Part shown: one piece after another, positions 1 to 36,572 of the stretch
Numbering within the stretch: position 1 is the stretch's first letter
Layout: every line of letters begins with the position of its first letter
Origin: a virus
DNA: 41,321 bases
Direction: 5' to 3' (one strand)
IMG/VR virus record: IMGVR_UViG_3300006112_000643
Span: 1-41,321 of that record
Notes under the pieces: model-generated
Databases searched by the model: none
What the model was told of the DNA's origin: nothing
The model's input: the letters and a program-made list of their open reading frames with translations, nothing else
Program-made: the position numbers and the translations under genes

Positions 1-231
1 TTTTTCTCCCCGACGAAACTGACGACGCAGATCCTGCATATACTCACTATGATATATAACTTCAAGATTAGTTTCGTTTAAATCATACTTGCGACCTGTA
101 TCATCTACAATCTCATCGTTAGCCAAACAGCAAGGACGTGTAGTACCTAGTGGGCTAGTTTCAATACTAACCCACGGTAGCATACAAATTGTTTTAGGTA
201 AGTTATTTTCCACAGGTTTTATTACACTCAT
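1..231 (-). CDS. Radical SAM protein with N-terminal twitch/SPASM-like Cys segment, partial (3' end outside window)
   Basis: An ATG at 231 on the minus strand opens a frame that runs to the window edge without a stop (77 codons). The N-terminus carries a Cys-x-Leu-Pro-Trp motif (C16) and, about 17 residues later, Arg-Pro-Cys-Cys (C34, C35). It then runs through a region ending in DLRRQFRRGEK. The same pattern stands before the radical SAM barrel in the proteins at 1176-2513 and 37574-38971 (for example C43 and C61/C62 in the former). I therefore read it as another member of that family whose barrel with the CxxxCxxC cluster lies outside the window. It overlaps the upstream gene by 29 bases, so it should be translationally coupled to it. 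Substrate unknown. Confidence 0.8.
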   Translation of the reverse strand, partial: MSVIKPVENNLPKTICMLPWVSIETSPLGTTRPCCLANDEIVDDTGRKYDLNETNLEVIYHSEYMQDLRRQFRRGEK

Positions 232-1189
232 AAATTTTTCCCTCGGGTACTGTACGATCCCAAGTTTCTTCTATAGCATTGAACCATCCAATGGCAGTTT
301 CTAATCCGTATTCTAGTGCATTGTTGTTTTTGATTAGGGGTTTTAATTGTATGTTACTGGGTCTTGCGTTACTATGCAAAGGATAGTAACCTAACCAACA
401 GCAAGGGTACACTTCCCCATTGCTGGCTACATAAATTTCTTGCTGACGTTTAGCATAGCAGTCTACTGTACGATTTTCAGTCTCATTGCGTATAGCAATA
501 TCAGGTTCTATTTTATAGTAAGAATAAGATGTAAACAATTTGTCAAAGTCTGTACTACCCTGCCAATTGCCAATTGTGTGAGTCAGTTGACGTTCGCTGT
601 TAAACACTGGCATTGTATTGCGACCAGCATCTACTAGATCAAAACGATCAAATCCCAAATCCTGGGACATTTGCTTACATTCATCAATTTGATGTTCGTT
701 ATGATCAAACTTAATCATTGCCCATACTGCACGGCCACCAGCGGCAATAAATTTCTTGGCGTTATCTAAAATAAAATTAAAGTCTGTATTTTGTCTGTAT
801 AAGTGATGCGTATCTGCTAGTCCATCTAAACGGAAGTAAACAGTTACACCCAATCGACCAAGGGGTTCCCATAACTTTGGTCTTGCACTAGCATTTGTGC
901 TGATTTCTACCTGAATCCTGGGATTAACTTTGAGCATATACTCAACAATCTCTAGACCGTCACGTGCTGTAACAAAGTCACCGTAGTTACCATTAATTGT
1001 GAAATGCTGTAATTGCTGTAGGAAGTCTTGAGTAAAAATCTGCTGGAACTGATCTAGAGTCATATCACATACAGGATATGTATCCATCACATCAACACCA
1101 CGAAAGTTACGCAGGCAATCTGGACAAGCAGCATTACAACGGCTGCTAATTTCTAAATGTACACTACGTAGATTTTTATACTGTAGCAT
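203..1189 (-). CDS. Radical SAM/SPASM-domain protein (328 aa)
   Basis: The radical SAM cluster motif CNAACPDC is at residues 18-25 (C18, C22, C25), almost at the N-terminus. The expected barrel follows, including an INGNYGD segment where the SAM-binding GGEP-type motif would lie. The C-terminus holds a SPASM-like Cys set: a Cys before a YVASNGEVYPCC segment near residue 260, then CNKTC at the end. Such enzymes usually modify peptides or proteins, with an auxiliary iron-sulfur cluster in the SPASM part. Unlike its neighbours, the auxiliary Cys region is C-terminal. The ATG start overlaps the previous gene by 14 bases, and the next gene starts inside this one. Family is clear; reaction and substrate are unknown. 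Confidence 0.88.
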   Translation of the reverse strand: MLQYKNLRSVHLEISSRCNAACPDCLRNFRGVDVMDTYPVCDMTLDQFQQIFTQDFLQQLQHFTINGNYGDFVTARDGLEIVEYMLKVNPRIQVEISTNASARPKLWEPLGRLGVTVYFRLDGLADTHHLYRQNTDFNFILDNAKKFIAAGGRAVWAMIKFDHNEHQIDECKQMSQDLGFDRFDLVDAGRNTMPVFNSERQLTHTIGNWQGSTDFDKLFTSYSYYKIEPDIAIRNETENRTVDCYAKRQQEIYVASNGEVYPCCWLGYYPLHSNARPSNIQLKPLIKNNNALEYGLETAIGWFNAIEETWDRTVPEGKIYECNKTCGK

Positions 1190-2513
1190 TTTTTGCTGGT
1201 ATTAATTCTGGAAACGTGTCCCAAAATTTTTCTTTACGTAAGGTATCCAAGACATAAGTTTCTTTAATGAACTTGTCCCAGTCATTTTTATTTCCTGGAT
1301 TAGACATAAAGTTAATAACACTTTCAAATCCAACAGTAGCACGACGTAGTTTGTCTAGGGGATCTAACCACTCAATATGTTTTCTATAAGCTGGTATGAC
1401 TACTTCTTGTTTAAACCATTCAGGTAGTATGTCAATTCGATACCATTTAGGTCCTTGTAAAATATTAACATTAAAATCTTTTGGATCTATTAACCCTAAT
1501 TCAACCCACTCTTTATGAAAATCTAGTACATGCAACACATTCATAACACTAATAGTAGAGCTAATATAAAAATCCACATGCGGAACTTCTTCTTTCATAC
1601 GCCGACGATTTTCAACTGTTTGATTCCAATCAGTACCTTTACGTATTAGTTCTCCTCGTGCATATGATGCATCTAGACTTGCTCCTACATTTACTGTTTC
1701 AAATTTTTTCCAATAGTCAAATACATGTTTGTCTTTAAAATGTAATTCACTAAAGTTTGTATTGTAGATTAGTCGAGTATTAGTTTTATCGCGTTCCAAC
1801 AATTTATCTAATAAGAAATAATGTTCCTTCATAATAAGTGGCTCACCACCAGCAAAATATACCTGCTCCATATATGGAATATGAGGCTCCATCTGTTTCA
1901 TTATCGATTCTTCGTCTCCTGCTGCGTATTCCACTCGTAGCATGTCGCGACCAAGAACATCTGGCTTGCGATTATATAGCTTGACATGATCGTTGTACCA
2001 GTTGCTACTGAAAATAGGACCGCAGGTACGACAGCTGAAATTGCAGAGATTGCTAAAACGGATATCCCAATACCTAATTTTGAATTCAGGATGCGTGCCA
2101 TCGTCGAGGGTTTGATCAACGTCATTTATGTAGTGTCCTAAGTTTCTATTTGCTTCGTTACGCATACTGAAAAAGCCGCTGGCTTCTTGTTCATAGCATT
2201 TGGTACATTCCTTGCAAGGTTTATCCTCTAGCATGTTACGTCGCATAGTCTTGTAACCATCTTGGTTCCAAATTTCTTCCATGGTATTTTTGCGCAGGTC
2301 TCCGACGGGATGCCAGTAATCTGCTAGACAACAGGGATAAGTACGACCATCCGGGAAAGCATGTGTATGCACCCAAGGTAGTATACAAAAGTGTTTATCG
2401 CTAGTTAATCTGCGTGTCTGTTCTTCTGTTAGTTTATCTTCACTGATATAGATAGGCTTCTTTGACATATAGTCATAGCCCTTTTTATAAAACTCTTTTT
2501 GACGTTCTGTCAT
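1176..2513 (-). CDS. Radical SAM protein, twitch-like segment N-terminal (445 aa)
   Basis: Residues 43-106 carry an auxiliary-cluster-like set: C43 in CILPW, C61/C62 in a TYPCC turn after a DGR segment, then C100, C103 and C106. The radical SAM motif CNFSCRTC follows at 157-164, and AGGEPLI further on is the SAM-binding GGEP motif. The C-terminal third has no obvious Cys cluster. The spacing 'C-LPW...dG...pCC...CxxC' resembles a SPASM/twitch half-domain placed before the barrel. The ATG overlaps the preceding stop in an ATGA arrangement, and the following gene overlaps this one by 14 bases, so it belongs to a coupled operon. Protein or peptide modification is the family expectation; no substrate can be named. 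Confidence 0.88.
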   Translation of the reverse strand: MTERQKEFYKKGYDYMSKKPIYISEDKLTEEQTRRLTSDKHFCILPWVHTHAFPDGRTYPCCLADYWHPVGDLRKNTMEEIWNQDGYKTMRRNMLEDKPCKECTKCYEQEASGFFSMRNEANRNLGHYINDVDQTLDDGTHPEFKIRYWDIRFSNLCNFSCRTCGPIFSSNWYNDHVKLYNRKPDVLGRDMLRVEYAAGDEESIMKQMEPHIPYMEQVYFAGGEPLIMKEHYFLLDKLLERDKTNTRLIYNTNFSELHFKDKHVFDYWKKFETVNVGASLDASYARGELIRKGTDWNQTVENRRRMKEEVPHVDFYISSTISVMNVLHVLDFHKEWVELGLIDPKDFNVNILQGPKWYRIDILPEWFKQEVVIPAYRKHIEWLDPLDKLRRATVGFESVINFMSNPGNKNDWDKFIKETYVLDTLRKEKFWDTFPELIPAKNATV

Positions 2514-3859
2514 ATACTATTGTACCATTCTTCTAAATTTGGGAACGTTTGGGCAAAGTTTTTACCGCGACGTTGGTCATACTGAGTGTAAAACTTTTTA
2601 AAATCTTGTTGTAGGACTGATTGCTCTGCTGCACCTACGTGGGGTGTTTTAACTACATCAAGGTAATCAATTAATCTACGTAACTGATTACGTTCCATTT
2701 GATGCATACAATCATCGTAGGCATTTTGATCAAACCATTCCTGTAATTGTTCTCTATAGTAAGTCCTAATTGAATCCGGTAATACTAGGGGTGATTGAAA
2801 ACTTGGGAAGCGTAAAATATTTAGTGTAAACGTAGGAAAGTCTTTTCCATACTCACGTTTCCAATTCATTACACATTCTAAAAAACTAACCAAACTGTCT
2901 AAGCATAATGCGTTAACGGTACACATCATGTGAAATCCTTCAAGTCTACCGTTAGTCAATATTTTTTCTACATTGTTGGCCCAGTTATCCCAAACTAGTC
3001 CATCACGAATATATTCGCTTTGTTGACTGATTGATTCATTACTAGTATACAAATGAAAGTGTTTGATCGAATGCGTTGCATCAATTAATCGATCAATTAG
3101 CTCATCCTTGGCACCAAGATTGCTGTTCATAGCAAACTTCATATCAGTGTCATTGTTTTTAAACCAGTTTAATAACTTCCACGTGTCGCCTGACATAAGC
3201 GGCTCGCCACCCGTTAGTCGCAGTTCTTTTAGTGTTCTATGGAGGTCTGATTCCCACCATTTAAAGAAGGCATCCACGTAAGGATTGCTTTCATTAAAGC
3301 GATAAAGTTGACTGCTATCATGACCGTGAGTAAAATGATTTCGGCCATCACTAACCAACCCTGTGTAAGGGCCGTTGCGATCCAAATCATTAACCCAAGT
3401 TGAACTGAAAGCAGGGTTACAGTAAGAGCAAGCAAAATTACAGGTACGATCGAATGCAATTTCCAAAGTTTGTAAATCCACGTCTGCATCTGCTGGAAGG
3501 TTATATGCTTGATCCAGGTCTTCGTCTGAATAGATAACTGTTTTATATACTCTATCACTGATGTTGTCACGGCCAATGTCCTCTATTTTCCAACAATACT
3601 CACAACCGCCTGGGCGTTCGCCCTGTTGCATTTGAGCACGTTCTTTTTTCTTTGTTAGTGTATTATGTAGTGCTTTAGGATTATTTAGTATATCTTCTAC
3701 TGCAACTTTATGTGGCAGTGGGTGATGGCAACTTGTAGTCTGTCCTGATCCCAACCATATGGTAGCATTGTACCATTTGGCACCACAAAATGAGTCTGAT
3801 TTAATATCGATTACTCTACGTTTATATTCTAAATCTGTTTCGTTGTTGAGTCTTGGCAT
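2510..3859 (-). CDS. Radical SAM protein, paralogue of the gene at 4181-5566 (449 aa)
   Basis: The radical SAM motif CNFACSYC is at residues 140-147 and the SAM-binding TGGEPLM motif lies further on. The N-terminal Cys set is C25 (FCGAKW), C44 (SCHHP), C86 and C89 (CEYCW). It matches the protein at 4181-5566 in this derived Cys set, in an NPxALHNT..KK segment, in NPYVDAF..WW before GGEPLM, and near the C-terminus (RRxxxF..TFP). The two are tandem paralogues. ATG start at 3859, with no clear Shine-Dalgarno upstream (A-rich leader). It is separated from the upstream paralogue by about 320 bases holding a radical SAM relic. The 3' end overlaps the next gene by 4 bases. Confidence 0.88.
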   Translation of the reverse strand: MPRLNNETDLEYKRRVIDIKSDSFCGAKWYNATIWLGSGQTTSCHHPLPHKVAVEDILNNPKALHNTLTKKKERAQMQQGERPGGCEYCWKIEDIGRDNISDRVYKTVIYSDEDLDQAYNLPADADVDLQTLEIAFDRTCNFACSYCNPAFSSTWVNDLDRNGPYTGLVSDGRNHFTHGHDSSQLYRFNESNPYVDAFFKWWESDLHRTLKELRLTGGEPLMSGDTWKLLNWFKNNDTDMKFAMNSNLGAKDELIDRLIDATHSIKHFHLYTSNESISQQSEYIRDGLVWDNWANNVEKILTNGRLEGFHMMCTVNALCLDSLVSFLECVMNWKREYGKDFPTFTLNILRFPSFQSPLVLPDSIRTYYREQLQEWFDQNAYDDCMHQMERNQLRRLIDYLDVVKTPHVGAAEQSVLQQDFKKFYTQYDQRRGKNFAQTFPNLEEWYNSI

Positions 3860-3910
3860 ATTTTTTTAAGTAAGTTTACACTTTTTATATTTGTTGATAC
3901 TATCGATAAT

Positions 3911-4180
3911 TTAAATAGTTCTTCCGGAACTATTACTTTTTTCACAATTTTGATAATGATATTGGCCAATTGGATTAAATCCAAGGGTTGGGCCAAGTTC
4001 GGACAATGTCCAGCGTGTGATTCCTGTGCTTTCTATCCATTGCCCTAGTTCTAATAAATGATTGATATTGTCACGTTGTAGTACGGTGTTTATTTGTATA
4101 CAGGAATACCCGCCATATCGATCAGCTAATGTGTTTATATTTTTAACTATTTTTTCCCAAATACTATTTTTTCTTTTAAA
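3911..4180 (-). pseudogene. Relic of a further radical SAM gene (C-terminal half fragment)
   Basis: This is the only stretch of more than 300 bases without an intact gene (3860-4180). Read on the minus strand from 4180, in the same frame as the preceding gene and directly after its TAA, there are 89 codons open to a TAA at 3911-3913. There is no ATG or GTG, and the first TTG comes about two thirds of the way in. The translation contains SIWEKIVKNINTLADR, then an INTVLQRDNINHLLELGQWI segment. This has the pattern W..I..NI....(12-15)..TV...N...L....WI found after the GGEP region of the intact radical SAM proteins here (for example SWESVCTNIKKYNE and PTVSIMNVLYLPELMDWI in 37574-38971). The barrel's Cys motif is missing. 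I infer remains of a deleted or recombined paralogue. Stop-codon read-through is a less likely alternative. Confidence 0.6.
3914..3934. other. Perfect 8-bp hairpin in the relic
   Basis: AATAGTTC - TTCCG - GAACTATT forms a perfect 8-bp stem with a 5-base loop, just before the relic's stop when read on the minus strand. On the plus strand it is followed by ACTTTTTT. On the minus strand it is followed only by TAAATTAT, so it is a poor intrinsic terminator for the leftward operon. It could be a processing or stability element, or chance. Confidence 0.3.
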
Positions 4181-5566
4181 TTAATTTTGGGCATAGTATC
4201 GGCATTGGCTCCAAAATTCCTTCATTTCGGGGAAGGTTGTTAAAAAATCAGTATTCCGTCGTTTATCGTGTTCGTTAAAGAAACGATAAAAATCTGCTCT
4301 TTGTAGTTTAACATATTCTGGATCAAGTTTGCTACCTTCTTTCATCCAATCTATGTCACGACGCATACGTTGTACTTCGTAATCTTTAAAGCCTTGAAAT
4401 GGCTTGTCTGGTGTTTCTAAATGTAGTTCCATCCAGTCTGCTACACGTTCTAGTACTCCTACATAGACTTCTGGGAGTATTTGTAAACTTTGCCAAGAAG
4501 GTTGGCGTAATAGTGGTGTATCAAACCAAACACGTTGATAAGTTGTGCTATAAGACTTGCGGAGGTTAAGAATCCATTCTAACTGTTGCTGTATGCCCAA
4601 CACGCTTAGATTATTCATTGTAATAATAAATGTAAGACTATTGCGATATGGAATCTCGTGTAAGAATCTATGTACATTATTTTGCATACGGTGAAAGTTT
4701 AGTCCGTGTCTAATGTACTCAGCGTGTTGATATTTGCCGGAGTCTAAACTAACATACTGCATAAAGTGTTCTATGTTTGTGTTACATAATTGTTTAACAT
4801 AGCCCAAATATTTTTCAAACAGGGAGTCATCTACTGAAAAGTTACTGGTTACATTTAGGTGTAGTTCGGGGTTGGGTAGAGCCAGGACATAATCAAATAC
4901 CCGATAGGTATTTCGATCCATTAGTGGTTCACCACCAGTCATCCGGAAGTGTTTGAGCTTTGGGTACAATTCTGGCCACCACTGCCAGAAGGCATCGACA
5001 TAGGGGTTGTCCTCTCTTGCAGGGATAGGACGATTACGACCCACAAAATGGCTGGGATCATTATGAGGACTTGATGTCGGATAGGCTCCCCAACGTTCAA
5101 CCTCTTGTGCCCAGGAACTACTAAATTGTGGACTGCAATAGCTACAAGCGAGATTGCAGGCGTGATTAAAATTAACTTCAACATAACTTGGAATAACGTC
5201 ATCTTCTTCTCCTGTGGAATTTTTAATTACTTCATAGTCTTCAGCAGCCCACGGTTCTCCTGATCGATAGTGTCGATCACTTAATTGATCGTGTGCTTCT
5301 ATATTCCAGCAGTAACTACATTCACTAGGTTTTTCATTCTTAAGCATGATAACACGTTGCTGTTTCTTATGCTCAGTATTATGTAATGCGCCAGGATTAT
5401 CTTTTAATGCGTCAGCATCAATTGGATGTAGGGGTGGATGGTAACAGGAGTTATTAAGTCCTGTGGGCAAGTGTAGGCTCACTTGTTTCCATTTAGCCAA
5501 ACAGAGTGCAGGACCTAGATTCTCCTTCATCCACTCAGCTGATGCCATAAAATCTGATTTACTCAC
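4181..5566 (-). CDS. Radical SAM protein (461 aa)
   Basis: The radical SAM motif CNLACSYC is at residues 137-144, with MTGGEPLMD as the SAM-binding segment. N-terminal Cys residues are C22 (LCLAKW), C41 (SCYHP), C83 and C86 (CSYCW), a variant of the 'C-LPW...PCC...CxxC' set of the other family members. The start is GTG at 5566, overlapping the upstream stop by 8 bases; an in-frame ATG six codons downstream is the alternative. It is a tandem paralogue of 2510-3859. The C-terminus, with a FxxxFNEHDKRR segment and a TFPEM motif, is the conserved family end. This argues that the protein stops here and is not naturally extended into the open frame that follows its TAA. Substrate unknown. Confidence 0.88.
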   Translation of the reverse strand: MSKSDFMASAEWMKENLGPALCLAKWKQVSLHLPTGLNNSCYHPPLHPIDADALKDNPGALHNTEHKKQQRVIMLKNEKPSECSYCWNIEAHDQLSDRHYRSGEPWAAEDYEVIKNSTGEEDDVIPSYVEVNFNHACNLACSYCSPQFSSSWAQEVERWGAYPTSSPHNDPSHFVGRNRPIPAREDNPYVDAFWQWWPELYPKLKHFRMTGGEPLMDRNTYRVFDYVLALPNPELHLNVTSNFSVDDSLFEKYLGYVKQLCNTNIEHFMQYVSLDSGKYQHAEYIRHGLNFHRMQNNVHRFLHEIPYRNSLTFIITMNNLSVLGIQQQLEWILNLRKSYSTTYQRVWFDTPLLRQPSWQSLQILPEVYVGVLERVADWMELHLETPDKPFQGFKDYEVQRMRRDIDWMKEGSKLDPEYVKLQRADFYRFFNEHDKRRNTDFLTTFPEMKEFWSQCRYYAQN

Positions 5567-6458
5567 GGATCATTGGTCCTTGATTACGAAACTGACTTTT
5601 GTAATGATGTTTAAAAAACTTACTTGCATCCGGATCCATATCAACAATAGGTAGTCCTAACTGATGACGCAGTATATCCCCTAACTCACTGCACCGATCA
5701 GTGTCTTGATCCTCTGCTCCGTTGTTTTGCCAAATTTGTTCTAGTACAGAAAAGTCCTGTACTACTCGATAGTCCCACTCGGTCAGCATGGTCATATAAG
5801 TACCTGTTCTAGCACCCAAGATACTATAAAAACCGTTGTCAGCATCGGCACCAACTGATTGCCAAATACACAAGTGATCGTAGTTGCGGCCATGCACACG
5901 TGATTCAAACTCTTGTAGCGTGGGCTTTGCTCCGCGATCTAAACACATCTTAACACCTTCACGGAAGCCAGCACGCCAAGCCTGGAAAGGAGTAGCATTA
6001 GGATAGGTAGTTGAATAGCAGTCACTCATAGCCCAGTAGTTAGGGTAAAAACAAAACTCTACATCGTTTTCTGTGGTGCCGTCACTAGCTTCGTGTGTAC
6101 GCATACTGTAGACGAAGTCTCGAGTCCAGCAACTTAATCCGCCATTGCCATACATTAGGCCATTAATAGCGTTACGAGCCCGCCAACGGAATACACAATC
6201 TTTATTTGTATCGTCTAGTGCCAGCTGGAGATTAAAGAAATTAGGATCTGGGATATTGTCACCGTCAATAAGAATAAAACGGTCAGTGCTACTTTCATCA
6301 GCGGCGGCTTTGTGGGCGGCGTCTGACCCTTTAACACCATCCACACGACGGGCCCAGGGAACCATATTTTGTATATGGATCCAATTTTGTTCTTTATTTG
6401 GTTCATCATAGGTTAGGTAAATGCAGTCTAAATCTGCTACGTCAATTATTTGGCTCAT
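5559..6458 (-). CDS. Putative GT-A-fold glycosyltransferase (299 aa)
   Basis: Near the N-terminus is FILIDGDNIPDPNFF (about residues 61-75). It is a strand followed by an acidic DGD motif (D65, D67), as in the metal- and sugar-nucleotide-binding DxD of GT-A glycosyltransferases. YLTYDEP and NWIHIQN earlier fit the first Rossmann-like strands. The middle has a Trp/Tyr/Asn-rich region (NGGLSCWTRDF) of the kind that lines acceptor sites. No membrane segment or signal is visible, so it is probably cytosolic. The ATG start overlaps the gene before by 17 bases. It lies between two smaller-module genes and the radical SAM series. Assignment rests on the motif and context; the donor and acceptor are unknown. 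Confidence 0.55.
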   Translation of the reverse strand: MSQIIDVADLDCIYLTYDEPNKEQNWIHIQNMVPWARRVDGVKGSDAAHKAAADESSTDRFILIDGDNIPDPNFFNLQLALDDTNKDCVFRWRARNAINGLMYGNGGLSCWTRDFVYSMRTHEASDGTTENDVEFCFYPNYWAMSDCYSTTYPNATPFQAWRAGFREGVKMCLDRGAKPTLQEFESRVHGRNYDHLCIWQSVGADADNGFYSILGARTGTYMTMLTEWDYRVVQDFSVLEQIWQNNGAEDQDTDRCSELGDILRHQLGLPIVDMDPDASKFFKHHYKSQFRNQGPMIRE

Positions 6459-6789
6459 AGTATTCTACGTTATTATATACTTCATCTGCTTCTATTACAA
6501 GTCCTGCGTGTCCTGCTACTGTAGGAAATCCCTTTGTAGATTTTTTAAGTCTGACACGATATTTTGAATTATGTTCAATTTTAACTAGTTGTCCTTTGAC
6601 CACACAATACCGAAAATAGTTATCATATTCTTCTTTTGTTACTACAATATACTGAGTTGATTCTGGGTGTTGTTGCATACTACACATTGTAATATCACCA
6701 TCATCATTATAATGCAATCTATATTCAAGTTGTGTTGATATTTCGGGTTTTACCTCTGCCCAATATGCTTTAAGTTCTTCTGGACTCAT
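6442..6789 (-). CDS. Small cassette protein of unknown function
   Basis: I do not recognise this protein. From the ATG at 6789 it has 115 residues: an acidic/aromatic N-terminus (MSPEELKAYWAEV), a beta-rich middle (YIVVTKEEYDNYFRYCVVKGQLVKI) and a C-terminus rich in Asn and Tyr. A TTG three codons upstream (6798) is the alternative start. I prefer the ATG because nothing favours the TTG. It has no signal peptide or membrane segment. It overlaps the gene upstream by 20 bases and the glycosyltransferase candidate downstream by 17 bases, so it is part of one coupled operon and probably serves the same process. Confidence 0.7.
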   Translation of the reverse strand: MSPEELKAYWAEVKPEISTQLEYRLHYNDDGDITMCSMQQHPESTQYIVVTKEEYDNYFRYCVVKGQLVKIEHNSKYRVRLKKSTKGFPTVAGHAGLVIEADEVYNNVEYYEPNN

Positions 6790-7621
6790 AATATTCAATT
6801 AGTTCTTTAGTGCAGTAATTCTTATCGTAGTAATGTACAGGGCCATATTGGTTTAAGTTATTGATTCGAATAACATCACCGTCTCGTTCTGTCATAACAG
6901 TTTCTAACCAACTTTGTGTGTCCGACCATCCATTGAATCCAGACTTCATATGTACAAAGTTTATAAAGTCCATACTAGGCATTGTGCAGGTTTCTTCACC
7001 AACCATTAGTGCAGCTAATGCGTATAGCACATCTGTACTGGGTTTGTCTTCAACGCATTTTTTAAGACCAGTTTTTACATATTCCCAATACTGCTGTATA
7101 TAACGTGCGGCTTCAAAAAAATTGTGTGCGTCTTGACTATAGCGGAAATACATTAGGCCGTTGTAGACATCCGGTAACTGATTAGCATCAAACAATTCCC
7201 GATACTTGCGTATAGTTCCATTGATTCCGCCAAATGTTTTAGCACCTGTGCTTAAACAAACATTCCGTAATCTAAATGCAGTCCACCAATGTTCAATACT
7301 TCTTGTAAACAATAAATCTGATTCTAATTTAATAGTCTCTTTAAAAGGCGTAAGACGAAAGACTTGCCATTCGTTAGCAAACTTTCTATCAGAGGAAGTG
7401 TCATTATAATCGGTGGGCAGATCAATAATATAATCAAAAGTATTACGATGAGAGTCATTTACTTTCTCCTTAGTGGTTGCATCAACAATTACCGCATACC
7501 GGTTATTCTTCTGCGTTGCCTTAATGTTAAGTGCCTGCAGGTAAGCAAGCTCCAAATAATCCACTGCGTCTGTGTTTTGTGCAAAGGTAACAAATCCTTG
7601 TTGTTCTTTATGTTGGCTCAA
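6770..7621 (-). CDS. Glycosyltransferase-like protein, divergent DxD (283 aa)
   Basis: It shares a layout with the protein encoded just upstream at 7608-8420: a short N-terminal strand (GFVTFAQNTDAVDYLELAYLQ), then VIVD, a DYIIDLP segment, and an acidic motif after a hydrophobic strand. The motif here is KLESDLLFTRSIEHWW (E100-S101-D102) rather than DTD. This suggests a nucleotide-sugar-transferase-like fold with an altered metal site. Whether it is active cannot be told. The start codon is TTG at 7621, overlapping the preceding gene by 14 bases. No ATG lies close inside the conserved N-terminus, so TTG is the likely real start. Confidence 0.5.
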   Translation of the reverse strand: MSQHKEQQGFVTFAQNTDAVDYLELAYLQALNIKATQKNNRYAVIVDATTKEKVNDSHRNTFDYIIDLPTDYNDTSSDRKFANEWQVFRLTPFKETIKLESDLLFTRSIEHWWTAFRLRNVCLSTGAKTFGGINGTIRKYRELFDANQLPDVYNGLMYFRYSQDAHNFFEAARYIQQYWEYVKTGLKKCVEDKPSTDVLYALAALMVGEETCTMPSMDFINFVHMKSGFNGWSDTQSWLETVMTERDGDVIRINNLNQYGPVHYYDKNYCTKELIEYYESRRT

Positions 7622-8420
7622 CTATAGCCTCCACTAATTGTTCAAATTCACTACTTTGTAAATACCACTTATCCATCACATGTATATTTTGGTATGGCAC
7701 CACTGTAGCTGTTTCGTTGTGATGTACGTGTATAAAATTATCCTTTAATATTATACGTTCAATTTTCTTTTCTAGTGTAAACATGCGCCAAGGAATGCCT
7801 TGGTCTTCATTTAAGGAATAACCACTAATGATATTGTTAGCTATAGCAAATGCATAGTCATTACGGAAATTTCCTTCACGAATATTGTACAAAGCACGAT
7901 AGTAGGCGTAGTTCCGTTGAACTCGCCCTACAAGATCAAAAAATAACCTAGCACGTTCTGTTTTTCTAAAAAGGACTACTGTGGCCCAAATAAACGGAAG
8001 GCTTGTTTCACCCATTAGTTCATAACTTGGTCCTTCGGGTGTTGCATTGTGGTGCATTAACCGATAATCAAAATCTGTAGCAAACAATTTTAATAGGCTA
8101 TCATCCAATACAAGATAATCAGTATCCAGTAAAACTGTTTCATCGTAGGGACTGAGATCATAGGCTAAATGTCTACCAAGATTTCTCCAGCGGAACGACA
8201 TATCTTCTGTTTTAAATGTGTCGCCCTGTTTTTCTATTCGAACAATATGATCGTATGCAAACTTGGGTGTGCTATCTAAGTCAGTGATCAGTGTAATGGG
8301 TAAATTTAATGTGTGGCCAATCAGTCGACTTGTTTGATCTGCAATAGCAACATAGTCTATGGTAGTATTAAAAGCAAATACTACTACACCTCTAGACTTT
8401 ACGGATTCGTTTGAGTTCAT
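7608..8420 (-). CDS. Putative GT-A-fold glycosyltransferase, GT8-like layout (270 aa)
   Basis: After an N-terminal strand (GVVVFAFNTTIDYVAIA) come ITLITDLDS and then ETVLLDTDYLVLDDSL (about residues 94-109). The latter is a clear hydrophobic strand with a DTD motif (D99, D101), as in GT8-type enzymes that move sugars from nucleotide donors. Later segments SLPFIWATVVLFRK and a C-terminal FIHVHHNE would supply the substrate pocket and the second metal ligand in that fold. No membrane segment is seen. The ATG start is 29 bases inside the preceding gene, giving translational coupling. A virion-protein or surface-sugar acceptor is possible but not shown. Confidence 0.58.
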   Translation of the reverse strand: MNSNESVKSRGVVVFAFNTTIDYVAIADQTSRLIGHTLNLPITLITDLDSTPKFAYDHIVRIEKQGDTFKTEDMSFRWRNLGRHLAYDLSPYDETVLLDTDYLVLDDSLLKLFATDFDYRLMHHNATPEGPSYELMGETSLPFIWATVVLFRKTERARLFFDLVGRVQRNYAYYRALYNIREGNFRNDYAFAIANNIISGYSLNEDQGIPWRMFTLEKKIERIILKDNFIHVHHNETATVVPYQNIHVMDKWYLQSSEFEQLVEAIVEPT

Positions 8421-8706
8421 TATGTTCTTGATGCCATCGATTCATTACTAGTTGATAGTGTTCTTCACATAGTGTACGAAACTCGTCACGTTCAACTTCA
8501 ATGGGATTATGATATGTGTCTTCAATATACATTGTAGTATATCTATATGTAGCTACAAATGCCAACAGTTCAGGAGTTACTTTGAACAGGCCACCGTTAT
8601 ATGCAACGTGCAAATCGGTTTGGATCTTCTCGCGAAGAATCTTTTTGTTGATCTGATAATCAGTTGCCCGACGGATTTCGTCAGTAATTTTTTCGAGTTC
8701 GCTCAT
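8392..8706 (-). CDS. Small conserved-looking phage protein, first gene of the radical SAM/glycosyltransferase cassette (104 aa)
   Basis: No named family is recognised. The protein is charged and mostly helical by eye (SELEKITDEIRRATDY at the start, RWHQEHNELKRIRKV at the end), with a hydrophobic strand in the middle (LLAFVATYRY). It starts with ATG at 8706, about 18-20 bases after the expected transcription start of the strong sigma70-like promoter, and the next gene starts 29 bases before its end. Similar small proteins occur beside fibre genes in aquatic T4-like phages as far as I remember, without a known role. As the leader gene of the cassette it may be an adaptor or regulator, but nothing in the sequence proves it. 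Confidence 0.75.
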   Translation of the reverse strand: MSELEKITDEIRRATDYQINKKILREKIQTDLHVAYNGGLFKVTPELLAFVATYRYTTMYIEDTYHNPIEVERDEFRTLCEEHYQLVMNRWHQEHNELKRIRKV

Positions 8707-8730
8707 ATAGAATAAAAGGTGTAGATAGTT

Positions 8731-8759
8731 ATTATACTATACTACACCCCGGATGTCAA
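8731..8759 (-). promoter_or_regulatory. Perfect sigma70-type promoter for the cassette
   Basis: On the minus strand, TTGACA (8759-8754), a 17-base spacer (8753-8737) and TATAAT (8736-8731) match the bacterial housekeeping consensus at all twelve positions. The expected start near 8724 lies about 18 bases before the ATG at 8706. It stands between the last structural gene and the cassette, in the only gap there. Confidence 0.85.
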
Positions 8760-8770
8760 CTTAATATGGA

Positions 8771-9709
8771 TTAAGCGATTGTTACTGTACCCCAAGTGTT
8801 AGTTAGGTTAGTTGTTTCTGGATATACCACGTCAATACGATGGTTTGGGGTAATGTTAATTGAGTCGTTAAACTGAGCACCCAATGTTGGGTCAGTACGT
8901 GCTGCACTATAGATAGTCACGGTGAATGTAATAACGCTACCAACGTCAGCATGTGCGCCCTGTACACCATTTGATTTCACCGCCAAAATTACATAATCTC
9001 CGGTGTAGCCAGAAGTAGTTGATGTGATTTGCGTCAATGTTTGATTGGTTGTAGTTAATTGGTAGTACCCGATGTTGGTTGCGTTGGTGTTGACTGTTCC
9101 ACCTGTGCCACTACGTCCGCCGCCTGTAGCGGAACGGAACGCTGGATAGCTTACCAAATTGGTACTGATCAATGTTTGTAGATCAGTTGAGCGTGCTGTG
9201 CCGTCACCTACTGTGGTACTTGTGAAAATAAAGTTAAGTTGGCCGCCAGCATTAAAGAAGTAGCGTGCAGCATCGCCCGAACTAAATGTTGCTGTACGAG
9301 TAATTGTATATGTTTGGGCAGTAGCACCGTTTACTGCTGTAAAGTTTGGACTGAATACTGAACCAGTAGTTGTAGAACCTTGTGAAGCAAAATTTGAACG
9401 GTTTGTGTAAGCAGTATTGACGTTTGTGGATAGTGTACTTAGGTAGTTGATAGTTTGTCCACTAGTAATACTACCACTGATGCCGGATCCGCTACCACTT
9501 TGGTGTGTTAAAACACTATTTAATGTGTTAATTAAACTAGCCCATTGTGTGGCTGTTACTAAGCCGCTACCAGATACTGCTGATATCGCAGTTTGTCCGT
9601 AGCCAGCGTTACCTGTGCCAGTGGACCAAACGGTGTTTAACTGGTTTGAACCGTTGACAAAACCATTATAATCTGATGCAGCAATTAAGCCACCTTGTGA
9701 GTACGCCAT
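8771..9709 (-). CDS. Fibre/appendage-like virion protein (312 aa)
   Basis: The N-terminus (MAYSQGGLIAASDYNGFV) and a GNAGYGQTAI segment followed by VTATQWASLINTL form a module often seen at the start of tail-appendage proteins of T4-like aquatic phages. The rest is Ser/Thr/Gly/Asn-rich and beta-rich with few charged residues (TSTTSGYTGDYVILAVKSNG near the C-terminus), typical of trimeric fibres or decorations. There is no collar, S74 or glycine-rich domain. It is the last gene of the structural block. An AATAAATA motif lies 21 bases upstream of the ATG, with an AGGA-type ribosome site between. Role as a virion protein is inferred from composition and position. Confidence 0.62.
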   Translation of the reverse strand: MAYSQGGLIAASDYNGFVNGSNQLNTVWSTGTGNAGYGQTAISAVSGSGLVTATQWASLINTLNSVLTHQSGSGSGISGSITSGQTINYLSTLSTNVNTAYTNRSNFASQGSTTTGSVFSPNFTAVNGATAQTYTITRTATFSSGDAARYFFNAGGQLNFIFTSTTVGDGTARSTDLQTLISTNLVSYPAFRSATGGGRSGTGGTVNTNATNIGYYQLTTTNQTLTQITSTTSGYTGDYVILAVKSNGVQGAHADVGSVITFTVTIYSAARTDPTLGAQFNDSINITPNHRIDVVYPETTNLTNTWGTVTIA

Positions 9710-9730
9710 ATTTTTCTATTCCTGTGAATA

Positions 9731-9738
9731 TATTTATT
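9731..9738 (-). promoter_or_regulatory. Late-promoter-like motif AATAAATA
   Basis: On the minus strand this octamer differs from the T4 late consensus TATAAATA at one base. It lies 21 bases before the ATG at 9709, with CAGGAA in between. That gives room for a start point and a short leader. Confidence 0.45.
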
Positions 9739-9741
9739 TAC

Positions 9742-11607
9742 TTATTTTGTTGCTAAAATTGATTTTATGTCGTCAATTTGACCTTTTAATTCTTTAATAG
9801 CTTCGACCAATAGTGCAGATAGTCGATCATACTTAACAGTTAAGTATTGTGGATCAATCGGGGCCGGCGCAGTAAGTTCTGGTAAAATACGTTTAGCATC
9901 TTGAGCACTAATACCAACATCTCTACGTACTTCATAACCCAAACCTTGTGCTATCTCGTTTGGTTCGTATATGAATCCTGTCAATGATAACACCTTATCC
10001 AGGGCATTGTCAATCTTACTGACTCGTGTTTTTAATCGATCGTCCGAATAATTGGATGTAATATCGCCCGTAGCGTTTATTGATCCGTTTACTGTTAGGC
10101 CAGCAAAAGTTGGACTATTACCTGTGCCAACTGCTTGTCCAATGCTAACTGTAACAGCACCAGTTGATCCCGATAGGGAAACTCCTGTACCAGCTGATAA
10201 ACTAGTAACTGCGCCGGAACCGGCTAAACTAACAGTTACACTACCGCCTAGAGCGACTGTTCCGCCACCAGTTAAACCTGTACCTGCTGTAACTGTAATA
10301 GAGTTGTTAGTTAATGCACCGTTTGGAATACTGCTAAAATTTGTACCGGTTAGGGTTGGTGCTGCTCCGCTAGCAACACTTTGATTTAATGTGTAGCTAC
10401 CAGATAGGGTCAGTGTGTTAGAACCATTGTTGACGCCAGTACCACCATAAGTTGGTGAAATAACGTTGGCATGCCATGTTCCTGCTGTAACAGTACCGAT
10501 ATTAGCTAAAGTCAGTGCTGTTGTTAAATTTGGTTGTACCGCGGTAGTTAGTGTACCTGCCAGTGTAGTAAATGCACCAGTACTTGGTGTAATATTGCCA
10601 ATTGGTGTATTATTAATAGACGAGAACGATGCAGATCCACCAATTGTTGCAATAGGCGATCCGTTGTAGTAGCCTGATCCATTTATGTTAGTAGTACCTG
10701 ATAGTGTTGTGGTACCGTTAGTATTTAAATTAGTAATATTACCTAGTCCAGTTATGTTAGTCTGACTAGGTGTTAGTAGTGTTCCAGTAAATCCAGATAG
10801 TGCTGTAAATACCTGGGACGTCATTGTTGTTGCGCTGACTGTGGTTGCTGAAACGTTTCCGTTTAAAGTTCCATTGAATGTACCGTTGAGTGATCCAGCA
10901 TTAACTGTTGATGCTGTAACAACTGTACCGTTAATTGCCGCGCCAGTAATTCCAGATGCGCTGTCTCTCAATACCAGTGTGCTAGGTAAGGCGCTAGCAC
11001 TTTGAGTATTCAATCCCAGTGTTTGGGCAACAGATAAATTAAAATTAAGACCTGGTACAATATTAGTGAACCCAGGTAGTGTAGTAGAAAATGTATCTTT
11101 AGAAAATACTGCGTAAATGGTACCAGCAATGATAAACTGTATTACTACGTGTGTACCAGAACTGGTATCAGTCATTAGAACTGGGAATGTTCCTGTGTTG
11201 CCCGTAGCAGGTGTACTCGGAGGACCAACTACAAGGAATCCTGTACCAGTATATACTTTTAGCTGTTGATTAATAGTATCAAACCATAAGTCGCCACCGA
11301 GGGCACTTAGGTCAGTTGGTGCTGTACCCGACGATGTTGCACCGGTTGAAATTTTCCAACTTGTACCAGACCAAACACGCAGGACGTTGTTGGTAGAATC
11401 CCACCATAGTTGTCCTTTTAAGGGACTGGGTGGACTTGATGTATTAGAGAAATTCTCTAACATTTTAACAAAGTTTTCGTTTAAAAAAGCTCCGTAGCCG
11501 GAATAGTCTCTACCAATTAAGGTTAAACTGGAACTGGTAATATCAATTGTTCCATCAGAAACAGTTGATAATAATGATCCGTTAGTTAAGTTAATTGTAT
11601 AAGACAC
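9742..11607 (-). CDS. Tail fibre protein with shared N-terminal module and C-terminal S74 chaperone domain (621 aa)
   Basis: The first ~190 residues match the other two fibre proteins: LTLIGRDYSGYGAFLNENF, a KGQLWWDS turn, and a second GGDLWFDTINQQLKVY turn. The middle is a low-complexity Thr/Gly/Asn beta-rich shaft. The last 103 residues (519-621) are an intramolecular chaperone of peptidase family S74. They begin NYSDDRLKTRV, with the Ser-Lys pair (S521, K526) used for self-cleavage in this family, and end in a helix (LSALLVEAIKELKGQIDDI). Such domains trimerise the fibre and are then usually released. The start is GTG at 11607 with AAAGGA upstream. Position after the baseplate and beside the collar protein supports host attachment. 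Confidence 0.88.
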   Translation of the reverse strand: MSYTINLTNGSLLSTVSDGTIDITSSSLTLIGRDYSGYGAFLNENFVKMLENFSNTSSPPSPLKGQLWWDSTNNVLRVWSGTSWKISTGATSSGTAPTDLSALGGDLWFDTINQQLKVYTGTGFLVVGPPSTPATGNTGTFPVLMTDTSSGTHVVIQFIIAGTIYAVFSKDTFSTTLPGFTNIVPGLNFNLSVAQTLGLNTQSASALPSTLVLRDSASGITGAAINGTVVTASTVNAGSLNGTFNGTLNGNVSATTVSATTMTSQVFTALSGFTGTLLTPSQTNITGLGNITNLNTNGTTTLSGTTNINGSGYYNGSPIATIGGSASFSSINNTPIGNITPSTGAFTTLAGTLTTAVQPNLTTALTLANIGTVTAGTWHANVISPTYGGTGVNNGSNTLTLSGSYTLNQSVASGAAPTLTGTNFSSIPNGALTNNSITVTAGTGLTGGGTVALGGSVTVSLAGSGAVTSLSAGTGVSLSGSTGAVTVSIGQAVGTGNSPTFAGLTVNGSINATGDITSNYSDDRLKTRVSKIDNALDKVLSLTGFIYEPNEIAQGLGYEVRRDVGISAQDAKRILPELTAPAPIDPQYLTVKYDRLSALLVEAIKELKGQIDDIKSILATK

Positions 11608-11633
11608 GCTTTATCCTTTGAATACTGTTATAT

Positions 11634-13304
11634 TTAGTACATTTTTTGTATGTAACATAGGGCATAGAATGGTGGTAAAGTACTAACTGTAATAGGATTA
11701 CCAACACCTGTATTAGCAGTTGTACCAGAATATGATCCACTACCACTGAATGTATGTGCATGGCCCGAGTCTGTAATACCTGTTGTTACAGTTCCAGTAT
11801 AGCGTTGTGTTGTTTGATATCCGCTATCTCCAACTAAATCGTTACCTGAGTTTACTGATCCTTGACCGCCAGGAGTATATATTGGATGTCGATGTCCAGG
11901 ATCATTTATTGCTGCGGTGCCTGTATTTGTAGTACCGGTAGTTGTAACTGTACCGCTATAGGTATGTGAGTGTGCGGGTAAATTAAGATTAGTTATAGTA
12001 ATCCCAGCACTAGTAGCTCCGCCAGTATTGCCAACTGTGTATGATCCACCTGCACCAATGATGAATTGACCACGTAAATCTGGAGTTCCGTTAGATCCGT
12101 CACATAGTTGCCAACCGGAAGGAATTGATGATGTTATACCTCCCCACATAATAATCATACCACGTGGTAGTACACTTTGTACAAATGCTGTAGTTGCTAC
12201 TGCTGTGTTGCTGGTATTGTATGGTAGGGTAGCGGCACCTATTACACCTGAGTTTGTTGGTAAGTATGCGGCTACGTTGCTGTTGTTATAAACGTTGGCA
12301 GTCAAATTAGCAATTTGTGTCTGTTGACTGGCTGCGTTAGCTTGCCACGCCACAGAAACGTTAGCAACATTGGAATTAATAGCCGATACATTTGATGCCA
12401 ATGCTGTGGTCAATAATTGTACATTTGAATTAATGTTAGTTAAACTGGTTTGAGTTGTTGACGCTAGTGTTGAAACGTTAGAGTTTATTGCAGCAACGTT
12501 ATTAACTAAATTAGTGTTAACTGTGCTAATCTGAGCATCAGTATAAATTTTTATATTAGCGTTGGCAGCTATGATTGAAGTATTGACCAATGACAAGTTA
12601 GCCTGTGTTGCCACTGCCAGTGCTGACACGTTTGCATTAATACCTATGATTGTTGGGTCAGTTGGCAAATAAGCAGCGGTATTAGAATTTGTGTAAAATT
12701 GTCCAGGGCCATTAAACAAACTATTATTAATAGTCAGTCCAGAATAGACCGTTGGGAAACCAGTAATAGCCGGGGATGGAGTAAAAGCGCCATCACTGCT
12801 GAGTGTGGCTAGAGTAACGTTGCCGAACTGTAGTTTTAAAATATTGTGTGTTTGCCCAACTGCTACTGCATCGTTGACTGTAACAGGAATTGCACCGCTA
12901 ACTCCCTGTGCTTTGGTATAGATTGGGCCAATTAATAACCATGTAGTACCATCATAAAAATAGTATTGATTAGTTGTTGTGCTGAACCAAGTATTTCCAG
13001 AAACTGCATTAACTGGCTGGGAAGCAGAAACGATAAGTCCATTAACTGGCAAATATCCTTCTGTTGTGAATACGTTTAGAGTTTGATCACCCTTGTTAAA
13101 CCAAAGCTGACCTTGAAGATTTGTTCCTGACGGTGCAGAATTACTAGCAAAACTTTCTAATAATTGTAGCAAATTTTGATCTAGATATTGTCCGTAACCA
13201 GTGGCATTAGGTCCTGGTAAAATAAGACTAGTGGTAGAATTAAAACCACCATCTGGTATGGTAATTTGTACGGATCCGTCGCTTGTTGTTATTGTATATG
13301 ACAT
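11634..13304 (-). CDS. Tail fibre protein with C-terminal phage collar domain (556 aa)
   Basis: The N-terminal module (GYGQYLDQNLLQLLESF, then LQGQLWFNKGDQTLNVF and NTWFSTTTNQYYFYDGTTW) is shared with the two neighbouring fibres. Residues in the middle are long Asn/Ala/Ser repeats of the form 'NSNVSTLASTTQ', likely a trimeric coiled coil. A TAVATTAFVQ segment leads into the tail collar domain: RGMIIMWGGITSSIPSGWQL, CDGSNGTPDLRGQFIIGAGG, and a C-terminal LPPFYALCYIQKMY. Collar domains are found in T4 gp12-type short fibres. His-rich turns (AHSHTYSG, GHRHPIY, GHAHTF) could bind metal ions as in gp12. A GATAAATA motif lies upstream. Confidence 0.88.
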   Translation of the reverse strand: MSYTITTSDGSVQITIPDGGFNSTTSLILPGPNATGYGQYLDQNLLQLLESFASNSAPSGTNLQGQLWFNKGDQTLNVFTTEGYLPVNGLIVSASQPVNAVSGNTWFSTTTNQYYFYDGTTWLLIGPIYTKAQGVSGAIPVTVNDAVAVGQTHNILKLQFGNVTLATLSSDGAFTPSPAITGFPTVYSGLTINNSLFNGPGQFYTNSNTAAYLPTDPTIIGINANVSALAVATQANLSLVNTSIIAANANIKIYTDAQISTVNTNLVNNVAAINSNVSTLASTTQTSLTNINSNVQLLTTALASNVSAINSNVANVSVAWQANAASQQTQIANLTANVYNNSNVAAYLPTNSGVIGAATLPYNTSNTAVATTAFVQSVLPRGMIIMWGGITSSIPSGWQLCDGSNGTPDLRGQFIIGAGGSYTVGNTGGATSAGITITNLNLPAHSHTYSGTVTTTGTTNTGTAAINDPGHRHPIYTPGGQGSVNSGNDLVGDSGYQTTQRYTGTVTTGITDSGHAHTFSGSGSYSGTTANTGVGNPITVSTLPPFYALCYIQKMY

Positions 13305-13323
13305 TTTATCTATCGCTTTTACT

Positions 13324-13331
13324 TATTTATC
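13324..13331 (-). promoter_or_regulatory. Late-promoter-like motif GATAAATA
   Basis: GATAAATA on the minus strand, 19 bases before the ATG at 13304, in the short gap after the adhesin gene. One base differs from T4 TATAAATA. Confidence 0.5.
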
Positions 13332-13341
13332 GCTAATTCAG

Positions 13342-14736
13342 TTATGTATTGAGTCCAACCAATGAATATGTACCCGGAGTTTGGAAAATGTGTACGATAT
13401 TCGCAGAGAAATCTGCATTTGTTACAATGTTTATGCTGTCCCCGCCTTGAAATAATGGTTGTCCAGTTGGGCTTACATAACCAACATAAACTCCACCCGA
13501 TCCGCCCTGTCCGCCAGGTACGATGCCCGAGTGTTCGTCGCCACCGCCACCACCCCCAGTGCCATTTACTCCATTACCGCCATTACCTGAGCCGCCACCG
13601 CCAAATCCACCTTGACCGCCAGGACCTGTACCGCCAGAACTTTGATTTCCGTAGCCGCCACCGCCCCCACCGCCTACTGAGTAAGATTGACCAACAACTG
13701 TAAATATTGCACCATCACCACCATCACCGCCTTGGTTACCGTTAGAACCGTTGCCTGCGGTAAGATATCCTCCCCCGCCGCCGCCGCCAGCTTGTCCGTA
13801 ACCTTGCCAGACACCCACACCGCCCGGGTTTCCTTGACCAGGATATCCTTGCCCACCTGAGGCTGATTGAACGTATCCTGAGCCTCCTCCGCCAGATCCG
13901 CCATTTGCTCCCGGGCCATTTTGTGTAGGGCCGTATCCGCCATGGCCACCACCCAAAGCTAATAGTCCTGCTATGTGTGTTTGACCGTTTAAGGGACTGC
14001 GGGTGTTCCAAACAACATTGCCACTAGAATCAATTAGAGCTGCTGCTACGCTTGCAGGACCCTCATCATTTGTTGCTGTGATGGTTATAGTGTTTGTTCC
14101 TGGTGGAAGTGATACTGTAGTGGATGCTGTATTCCACCATTGATCTTCACTCAGGACAGATGATCCGCCGTTGAAGCTAATACTGTTAGTGTGATTATCT
14201 GCACTGGTTATTAGTGTGTATGTCCCACCATTTGCCAAATAAGTTGTATAATTTAATGTAATTGTTCCAGCAGGAGCACCTGATGGTGGATTAGAATTCC
14301 ATACTCCGTACTGATTTAAAAATCCAGTATATACCGGATAAGGTGCTTCATATATTGTTTGATCTACGGTGTCAACTACTAAGCTAGCAGATCCAAAACT
14401 AGAATTGCCACCATTGTTATCTTGTGCACCACCTGCGCCAACTACCACAGTATATGTAGTATTAATTGCTGAGATGACTGTGCTCGAGCTATAGACTACT
14501 CCGCCAGCTCCTCCTCCGCCGCCACCTTCGTATCCGGATGGGCCGCCTCCGCCACCGCCTCCACCCACTACTAGAATCTGTGCAGTAACAGGATCAGGTG
14601 GCCAAACACGTACCCAAACGCCATTTTGATTTTCCCACATGCCTTTGGCTTGTGTCCATGTACCGCCGTTATCAACCCACAGTCCTTTTACCGGACTCCA
14701 TGTGTTGTTATTATTCACATAGGGTTGACGTGACAT
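13342..14736 (-). CDS. Glycine-rich adhesin with an inserted beta-sandwich domain (464 aa)
   Basis: The N-terminus has three WSPVKGLW / WTQAKGMW / WVRVW-type Trp repeats, probably an anchoring module. A first Gly-rich block (ILVVGGGGGGGG) is interrupted at about residues 125-255 by a beta-rich, Gly-poor domain. That domain contains YTLITSADNHTNSISFNGG and LPPGTNTITITATNDEGPAS, a pattern like PA14/GLEYA-type or related sugar-binding sandwiches. A long region of Gly tracts then follows (GGSGGGGSG, QAGGGGGGGYL, GGGGGGDEHSG). Gly-rich tandem motifs resemble the polyglycine-helix distal adhesins of some T4-like phages that recognise outer-membrane proteins. It sits among the fibre genes and starts 2 bases after the previous stop (TAATAATG). 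Receptor recognition is inferred. Confidence 0.72.
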   Translation of the reverse strand: MSRQPYVNNNNTWSPVKGLWVDNGGTWTQAKGMWENQNGVWVRVWPPDPVTAQILVVGGGGGGGGPSGYEGGGGGGAGGVVYSSSTVISAINTTYTVVVGAGGAQDNNGGNSSFGSASLVVDTVDQTIYEAPYPVYTGFLNQYGVWNSNPPSGAPAGTITLNYTTYLANGGTYTLITSADNHTNSISFNGGSSVLSEDQWWNTASTTVSLPPGTNTITITATNDEGPASVAAALIDSSGNVVWNTRSPLNGQTHIAGLLALGGGHGGYGPTQNGPGANGGSGGGGSGYVQSASGGQGYPGQGNPGGVGVWQGYGQAGGGGGGGYLTAGNGSNGNQGGDGGDGAIFTVVGQSYSVGGGGGGGYGNQSSGGTGPGGQGGFGGGGSGNGGNGVNGTGGGGGGDEHSGIVPGGQGGSGGVYVGYVSPTGQPLFQGGDSINIVTNADFSANIVHIFQTPGTYSLVGLNT

Positions 14737-14738
14737 TA

Positions 14739-16307: not shown

Positions 16308-16311
16308 GATA

Positions 16312-30200: not shown

Positions 30201-30208
30201 TATTTATC
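30201..30208 (-). promoter_or_regulatory. Late-promoter-like motif GATAAATA before gp6
   Basis: GATAAATATA on the minus strand in the gp25-gp6 gap, 22 bases before the gp6 ATG. Spacing leaves a short leader containing AGGTTAG. One base differs from the T4 late octamer TATAAATA. Confidence 0.55.
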
Positions 30209-36564: not shown

Positions 36565-36572
36565 TATTTATC
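36565..36572 (-). promoter_or_regulatory. Late-promoter-like motif GATAAATA at the head of the structural block
   Basis: GATAAATA on the minus strand ends 5 bases before the ATG at 36559, in the divergent gap. Two TATAAT sequences lie further upstream on the same strand (one at 36585-36580) without a convincing -35 box. Position at the start of the whole leftward cluster favours a real promoter; the short spacing would give an almost leaderless mRNA. Confidence 0.45.

Follow-up and report, generated by a model that had tools for sequence, protein, structure and literature searches.

A conserved radical SAM and glycosyltransferase cassette next to the tail genes of a T4-like jumbo phage, and its probable role in building an unusual sugar

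The present study analyzes a gene cassette at one end of IMG/VR virus record IMGVR_UViG_3300006112_000643, positions 1 to 41,321 (hereafter the window, meaning that whole stretch of 41,321 nucleotides). The cassette encodes radical S-adenosylmethionine (radical SAM) enzymes, glycosyltransferases (GTs) and small proteins, and lies directly behind the last gene of the structural block, here called GLYR. Its gene content, intact motifs, gene order, separate transcription signals and co-inheritance are directly established; functions throughout are assigned from sequence and predicted structure. Every open reading frame (ORF) from 8706 leftward to position 1 was confirmed, all on the minus strand and with successive overlaps of 29, 14, 4, 8, 17, 29, 14 and 29 bases, in agreement with an earlier sequence-only reading of the window, which had given overlaps of 4–29 bases. 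The same reading had placed a relic in the one wide gap, and the sole such gap (321 bases, 3860–4180) does contain one. The features are as follows.

8771 to 9709, minus strand: GLYR, a Ser/Thr-rich protein of 312 amino acids (aa) that closes the structural block and is the candidate acceptor.
8731 to 8759, minus strand: sigma-70 type promoter, TTGACA-17-TATAAT, matching at 12/12, between GLYR and sml8.
8716 to 8750, minus strand: terminator-like hairpin, GGTGTAG/CTACACC stem then a T-rich tail, overlapping the -10 element.
8392 to 8706, minus strand: sml8, conserved small protein of 104 aa, first gene of the cassette, in 11/11 genomes.
7608 to 8420, minus strand: GTb, GT-A/GT8-like glycosyltransferase, D99 x D101 invariant in the alignment.
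6770 to 7621, minus strand: GTa, GT8-like glycosyltransferase with an E-S-D motif, E100 and D102 invariant in the alignment.
6442 to 6798, minus strand: sml18, small protein of 118 aa, in 8/11 genomes, inherited together with the GT block.
5559 to 6458, minus strand: GTc, divergent GT-A-like enzyme, invariant D65-G66-D67, mean identity 69%.
4181 to 5566, minus strand: RS2a, N-terminal twitch radical SAM protein (N_Twi_rSAM), 461 aa, NF033640 at 299.1 bits, own clade in the tree.
3974 to 4174, minus strand: radical SAM relic, matching at 57% across 67 aa a 331-aa radical SAM protein that is intact in L007/L101.
2510 to 3859, minus strand: RS2b, N_Twi_rSAM, 449 aa, NF033640 at 300.7 bits.
1176 to 2513, minus strand: RS0a, N_Twi_rSAM, 445 aa, NF033640 at 397.6 bits.
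203 to 1189, minus strand: divergent radical SAM protein, optional gene, 328 aa, homologue of CPT_0080/0083/0084 of phage CP220.
1 to 231, minus strand: RS0b, N_Twi_rSAM truncated at the window edge, with a full length of 411 aa in G001/L039, 339 bits when complete (G001).

The window is 100% identical, in reverse, to positions 17371–58691 of an 84,964-base IMG/VR record (G001), where the cassette continues. This continuation had been missed by the sequence-only reading, as had the sigma-70 promoter at 8759–8731 and a further N_Twi_rSAM gene at 37574–38971. In full, the cassette has three putative GT-A-type glycosyltransferases, two small proteins and seven radical SAM proteins (five N_Twi_rSAM and two divergent) plus further enzymes. 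Beyond the window edge lie a complete 411-aa N_Twi_rSAM, a 410-aa radical SAM protein and a 430-aa N_Twi_rSAM, together with a 361-aa protein for which no Pfam match was found, two SGNH-type proteins and a 493-aa O-carbamoyltransferase. No cassette family has consistent membrane segments, and the cassette proteins are all soluble. Downstream of the cassette an 811-aa protein with repeated units (L219:8383-10818, G001 68383-70818) is kept in 10/11 records. The source virus is a T4-like jumbo phage, as shown by Pfam matches to Gp23 and Gp20 and by a baseplate protein 35–36% identical to counterparts in RaK2/GAP32-like phages. Related records reach 374 kb and have 5–16 N_Twi_rSAM matches apiece.

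Five radical SAM proteins, the last cut off, had been claimed for the window, and all five are radical SAM proteins, four of them matching NF033640, the NCBIfam model of N_Twi_rSAM with a curated cut-off of 170 bits (E = 1e-14 to 6e-119 for RS2a, RS2b, RS0a and the truncated RS0b). The fifth, at 203–1189, falls below the cut-off (21.9 bits) and is of a different, divergent type. A tree of 64 radical SAM proteins resolved five well-supported clades, one per position (RS2a, RS2b, RS0a, RS0b and RS0c), and most of the records contribute members to each clade. The CX3CX2C motif and at least four N-terminal Cys are kept in every member of all five groups; in RS2a, where the motif and four N-terminal Cys are conserved, Cys stand at 10/10. 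Since the clades are positional and each has conserved Cys motifs, the five groups are five non-redundant steps and not duplicates of one enzyme. The N_Twi_rSAM gene at 37574–38971 (plus strand, NF033640 at 316.5 bits) is far from the cassette, gives the best Pfam radical SAM match in the window and directly precedes SbcD- and SbcC-like genes, which are separated from each other by a DUF6071/SGNH-like ORF at 40022–40438.

The three proteins read as GT-A-like were compared by profile and by fold. None of them matched Pfam. The GTa profile matched glycogenin-1 (E = 1.1e-4, profile positions 4–112) and GTb is its homologue (98.5% in profile comparison), while for GTc, whose AlphaFold2 (AF2) model has a predicted local distance difference test (pLDDT) score of 83, the matches to GT-A folds are weak (E >= 3e-3). 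The GTc profile is also homologous to the C-terminal part of the 811-aa downstream protein. Profile searches of the PDB with GTb, GTc, the c6 family and SGNH1 returned nothing useful, and tblastn of GTc, RS2b, sml8 and GLYR against 50,697 phage records gave no match.

Searches of IMG/VR with RS2b and with one GT each recovered at least 599 related stretches. Conservation was assessed in eleven long related records and in 80 GLYR loci with enough sequence; loci were collected by similarity to the window and are not a random sample, and gene calling in relatives relied on a simple script that takes the longest ORF. The order FIB-GLYR-sml8-GTb-GTa-(sml18)-GTc-RS2a-RS2b-RS0a-RS0b-RS0c is fixed in nearly all genomes and loci, and one record (G008) retains less of it: besides GLYR, sml8, GTb, GTa and GTc it has only two or three radical SAM genes. 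Pairwise distances of sml8 track those of GTb and GTa (r 0.88–0.89), and those of sml18 track sml8, GTb and GTa (r 0.84–0.88), making sml8, GTb, GTa and sml18 a single tightly co-inherited block; GTc and the radical SAM proteins evolve more slowly. Four loci assigned to bins of Betaproteobacteria, Pelagibacter, Verrucomicrobia and Rickettsiales (L315, L317, L318 and L319) carry the phage cassette with fiber and GLYR genes and are probably viral contigs binned with bacteria.

The patterns detected make it very probable that the cassette assembles and chemically modifies an unusual sugar, which is placed on a tail protein of the phage or on the host surface. That the radical SAM enzymes themselves act on sugar, and that the cassette performs sugar tailoring, we consider likely on the strength of the companion enzymes, a match of the twitch to BtrN and the position of bacterial homologues near polysaccharide-type exporters, all of which favor sugar chemistry over peptide crosslinking. 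The O-carbamoyltransferase, present in 10/11 long records, matches NovN, GdmN and TobZ. An optional amidinotransferase with invariant Cys and His matches AGAT, HsvA and inosamine-phosphate amidinotransferase (StrB1); it was not found in the 84,964 bases of G001, and two other records (G016 and G018) have one in or beside the cassette. A DegT/DnrJ aminotransferase is an optional neighbor close to the cassette, further GT-like genes are likewise optional, and the optional genes between the core radical SAM genes comprise the SGNH-type genes, c126 (sulfotransferase-like by eye), the amidinotransferase and the c6/c12/GT32 family. In the PDB the RS0a profile matched BtrN alone, an aminocyclitol enzyme of aminoglycoside biosynthesis, and did so weakly (E = 1.3e-3) and through the twitch region of RS0a. 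Among genome contigs, relatives of RS0a occur on Bdellovibrionota chromosomes. One contig of a Bacteriovoracaceae metagenome-assembled genome (L320) carries, beside obgE, an array of eight N_Twi_rSAM genes (6040-18036) in which counterparts of RS2a, RS2b, RS0a, RS0b and RS0c are adjacent to one another. Other bacterial N_Twi_rSAM loci have a carbamoyltransferase, DegT and an ABC-2 type exporter pair (L327), a carbamoyltransferase (L340), or an amidinotransferase and an ABC ATPase (L333), and radical SAM, SPASM and GT2 are the families found most often among 121 proteins flanking the bacterial homologues.

The sequence-only reading had proposed a phage-encoded, multi-step modification pathway beside the receptor-region genes, and this is supported; the cassette is co-conserved with the virion-type gene GLYR. 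GLYR lies upstream of GTb in 129/130 testable loci. One candidate substrate named in that reading fared differently: the glycine-rich adhesin (13342–14736) has relatives in only 3/11 cassette-bearing genomes and was rejected as substrate, GLYR being the constant neighbor. GLYR is 30% Ser plus Thr and its AF2 model is confident (pLDDT 93.5); a fold search with the model gave no PDB match and three uncharacterized viral matches. Distances in GLYR correlate with those in GTb at r 0.69 (95% range of subsamples 0.63–0.76), with c14 at 0.59 and with the adjacent fiber gene at 0.27. Partial correlations are 0.50 for GLYR and GTb given c14, 0.26 for GLYR and c14 given GTb, and about zero for GLYR and GTc given GTb. 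The pattern fits a block that would recognize the acceptor and a conserved block for sugar chemistry, and linkage alone could explain part of it.

The gap of 64 bases between GLYR and sml8 houses both the promoter and the hairpin, which folds at -17.6 kcal/mol (z -2.4). Of 128 homologous gaps, 48% scored 10 or more out of 12 for the promoter, vs 3% of shuffled sequences and 0–1% of gaps preceding fiber genes and GLYR. Terminator-like hairpins occur in 60% of 125 such gaps, vs 5% of shuffled sequences and 0–9% of other gaps. Fiber genes are preceded by NATAAATA/TAAATA, mostly 23–32 bases upstream (52–83% vs 4–16% shuffled), motifs that look like the T4-late-like signal of this lineage; the exact T4 late promoter TATAAATA does not occur in the window. 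TAAATA was found in 29/131 GLYR-sml8 gaps, none of which also has a strong sigma-70 site. Within the window, NATAAATA sites stand shortly upstream of structural gene starts on the minus strand at 9731–9738, 13324–13331, 30201–30208 and 36565–36572. With a terminator and a sigma-70 promoter behind GLYR and late-type motifs at the tail genes, the cassette is probably its own transcription unit, separate from GLYR and, in many members, expressed early by the host polymerase. Early expression would be compatible both with decoration of the virion and with remodeling of the host surface.

As an explanation of the whole, we tentatively favor a glycan-building and sugar-tailoring pathway with GLYR as its acceptor. 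The host-type sigma-70 promoter that follows the last structural gene would drive the cassette as a unit of its own, and the three GT-A-type enzymes would assemble a short glycan. The five radical SAM enzymes, with the SGNH-type enzymes and the O-carbamoyltransferase, may oxidize, epimerize, deoxygenate or otherwise tailor its sugars, joined in relatives by the amidinotransferase and the sugar aminotransferase. The acceptor would most likely be GLYR, encoded immediately upstream, and virions would leave with a decorated protein in the receptor region. Several points weigh against this account. The BtrN match is weak and confined to the twitch, GTc is without a confident fold match, and physical linkage confounds the co-variation of GLYR and GTb. 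The early-type promoter and terminator split the cassette from GLYR and fit host remodeling at least equally. Finally, three loci (L301, L313 and L307) have GLYR without the cassette. In these the slot behind GLYR, read by eye, holds an OmpA-like lipoprotein gene in two (L301:3011-3718 and L313:11248-11955, possibly a host-envelope gene) and, in L307, genes for two proteins, one GT-like and one with a signal peptide. The last locus also encodes two GLYR homologues extended by long, mucin-like, Thr-rich linkers to about 700 aa (L307:9883-14221).

A close rival, which we regard as possible if somewhat less so, is that the same sugar chemistry acts on a glycan (lipopolysaccharide core, O-chain or capsule precursor) on the host surface, an early change that could exclude competing phages or suit the adsorption of progeny. 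It keeps this standing because of early, separate expression and the envelope-type genes in the slots of L301, L313 and L307. With its own early-type promoter behind a terminator, vs late-type TAAATA at the structural genes, the cassette is not simply part of the fiber operon, which leaves room for a host-surface target. Enzymes of GT8 type, bacterial homologues in loci of surface-polysaccharide type and the role proposed for pelagimyophage GTs (PMC7029224) are also in its favor. Against this are the near-invariant pairing with a virion-type gene whose divergence follows that of GTb, and a cassette in which no membrane GT, flippase or polymerase was seen.

Modification of protein or peptide, by epimerization or by C-C or ether crosslinks in GLYR or a fiber, with the GTs acting on the same protein, appears improbable. 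Peptide maturases are frequent among SPASM/twitch radical SAM enzymes, and weak cross-matches of the present radical SAM proteins to peptide maturase models point the same way. However, neither protease nor peptide exporter was seen, and conservation of the radical SAM proteins and GTc (61–69%) far exceeds that of GLYR (41%). The gaps of the cassette contain no shared small ORF that could be a conserved precursor peptide, in keeping with the statement in the sequence-only reading that none was clearly visible; thioether-type peptide chemistry is unlikely for GLYR, which has no Cys in the window copy and no conserved Cys column among 46 homologues. ORFs of 69–76 aa do lie between RS0c and the 361-aa gene (the RS0c-c21 interval) in three records (G003 54433-54642, G004 49484-49705 and G010 78885-79109); they evolve fast, with a loose C-terminal pattern of acidic residues followed by FxLKY. 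They were rejected as precursors of a ribosomally synthesized and post-translationally modified peptide (RiPP), being present in few loci and not RiPP-like.

It is very unlikely that the product is a diffusible aminoglycoside-like small molecule or cofactor: radical SAM enzymes, amidinotransferase, carbamoyltransferase, DegT and GTs do resemble aminocyclitol antibiotic clusters, with BtrN, TobZ, NovN and StrB1 among the matches, but no cyclitol synthase or exporter was seen in the cassette, and its position beside structural genes is strict. Hypermodification of DNA bases with sugars is equally remote: phage GTs often glycosylate DNA and early expression would fit, but no base-modification genes adjoin the cassette, and no hydroxymethylase of the thymidylate synthase (TS) family was found in the eleven long records, in a search that did not extend to other base-modification routes: each record has at most one TS-family gene (3/11 have none), and the five checked have the Asn of true deoxythymidine monophosphate synthases. 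A defense role was rejected, with no confident PADLOC match and only weak, partial, superfamily-level matches to pVip (viperin-type; E 7e-7 to 1e-4).

Cassettes of this kind are already known, since both the CP220/CPt10 module and those of pelagimyophages are published. Campylobacter phages CP220 and CPt10 encode 11–12 radical SAM proteins (PMC2853527), and their interchangeable module, in which five such proteins accompany an amidinotransferase, is the closest published relative (2010). As we read it, the CP220 module (CPT_0080-0089) has five radical SAM genes, an amidinotransferase, two annotated nucleotide-diphospho-sugar transferases and a look-alike third. It shares with the present cassette a T4-like phage background, overlapping genes and the combination of five radical SAM proteins, amidinotransferase and annotated or putative GT-A enzymes. 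The family model of the 203–1189 protein matches CPT_0080/0083/0084 (E 3.5e-32 to 5.8e-34), and the CP220 amidinotransferase is homologous to that of relatives of the window (E 3e-19), although here the enzyme occurs in some relatives only and was not seen in G001. Unlike the present cassette, the CP220 module has no annotated carbamoyltransferase, GLYR or sml8, and its radical SAM proteins are 249–342 aa long and not confidently of N_Twi type. Pelagimyophages carry GTs and radical SAM cassettes in a host recognition cluster, with the GTs read as O-chain modification (PMC7029224). Location in the tail fiber region and gene classes are shared; the pelagimyophage cassettes are described as varying between close relatives, whereas the five-orthologue core here is fixed. 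The Bdellovibrionota arrays share all five radical SAM groups, adjacent in L320, and elsewhere the carbamoyltransferase, DegT or amidinotransferase, but they are chromosomal, without GLYR, sml8, GTa, GTb and GTc, and with polysaccharide-type exporters in some loci. Mycobacteriophages are reported (Freeman et al. 2023, cited in PMC12619734) to place glycans on virion proteins, a precedent for glycosylated virion proteins; there the targets described are capsid and tail tube. BtrN, TobZ, NovN and StrB1 are of the same enzyme classes and act on sugars or cyclitols, but they produce secreted antibiotics, and the twitch of BtrN is C-terminal, not N-terminal as here, with a radical SAM part only weakly related in sequence. 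We know of no radical SAM tailoring in mycobacteriophage virion glycosylation, nor of a radical-SAM-tailored protein glycan from any virus. What the present lineage adds is a core of five orthologues, a branch with the carbamoyltransferase, GLYR as a constant partner, a transcription unit separate from it and counterparts in bacteria. Elsewhere in the window, one ORF of 3390 aa (16995–27167, minus strand) has baseplate genes on one side and fiber genes on the other.

Cassettes that combine radical SAM and GT genes have been described in phages since 2010, but no function has been assigned to them. The lineage studied here supplies a fixed five-enzyme core, a constant partner as candidate acceptor, a map of transcription units and bacterial counterparts accessible in the laboratory. 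The most specific form of the proposal, that an early set of five radical SAM enzymes and carbamoyl-, amidino- and aminotransferases makes an aminoglycoside-like glycan attached to a virion tail protein in widespread uncultured jumbo phages, is less likely than not. If sugar tailoring of this kind is correct, phages would make rare sugars by radical chemistry for their virions or their hosts, with effects on adsorption and on competition among phages, and would represent a new pool of sugar-tailoring enzymes.

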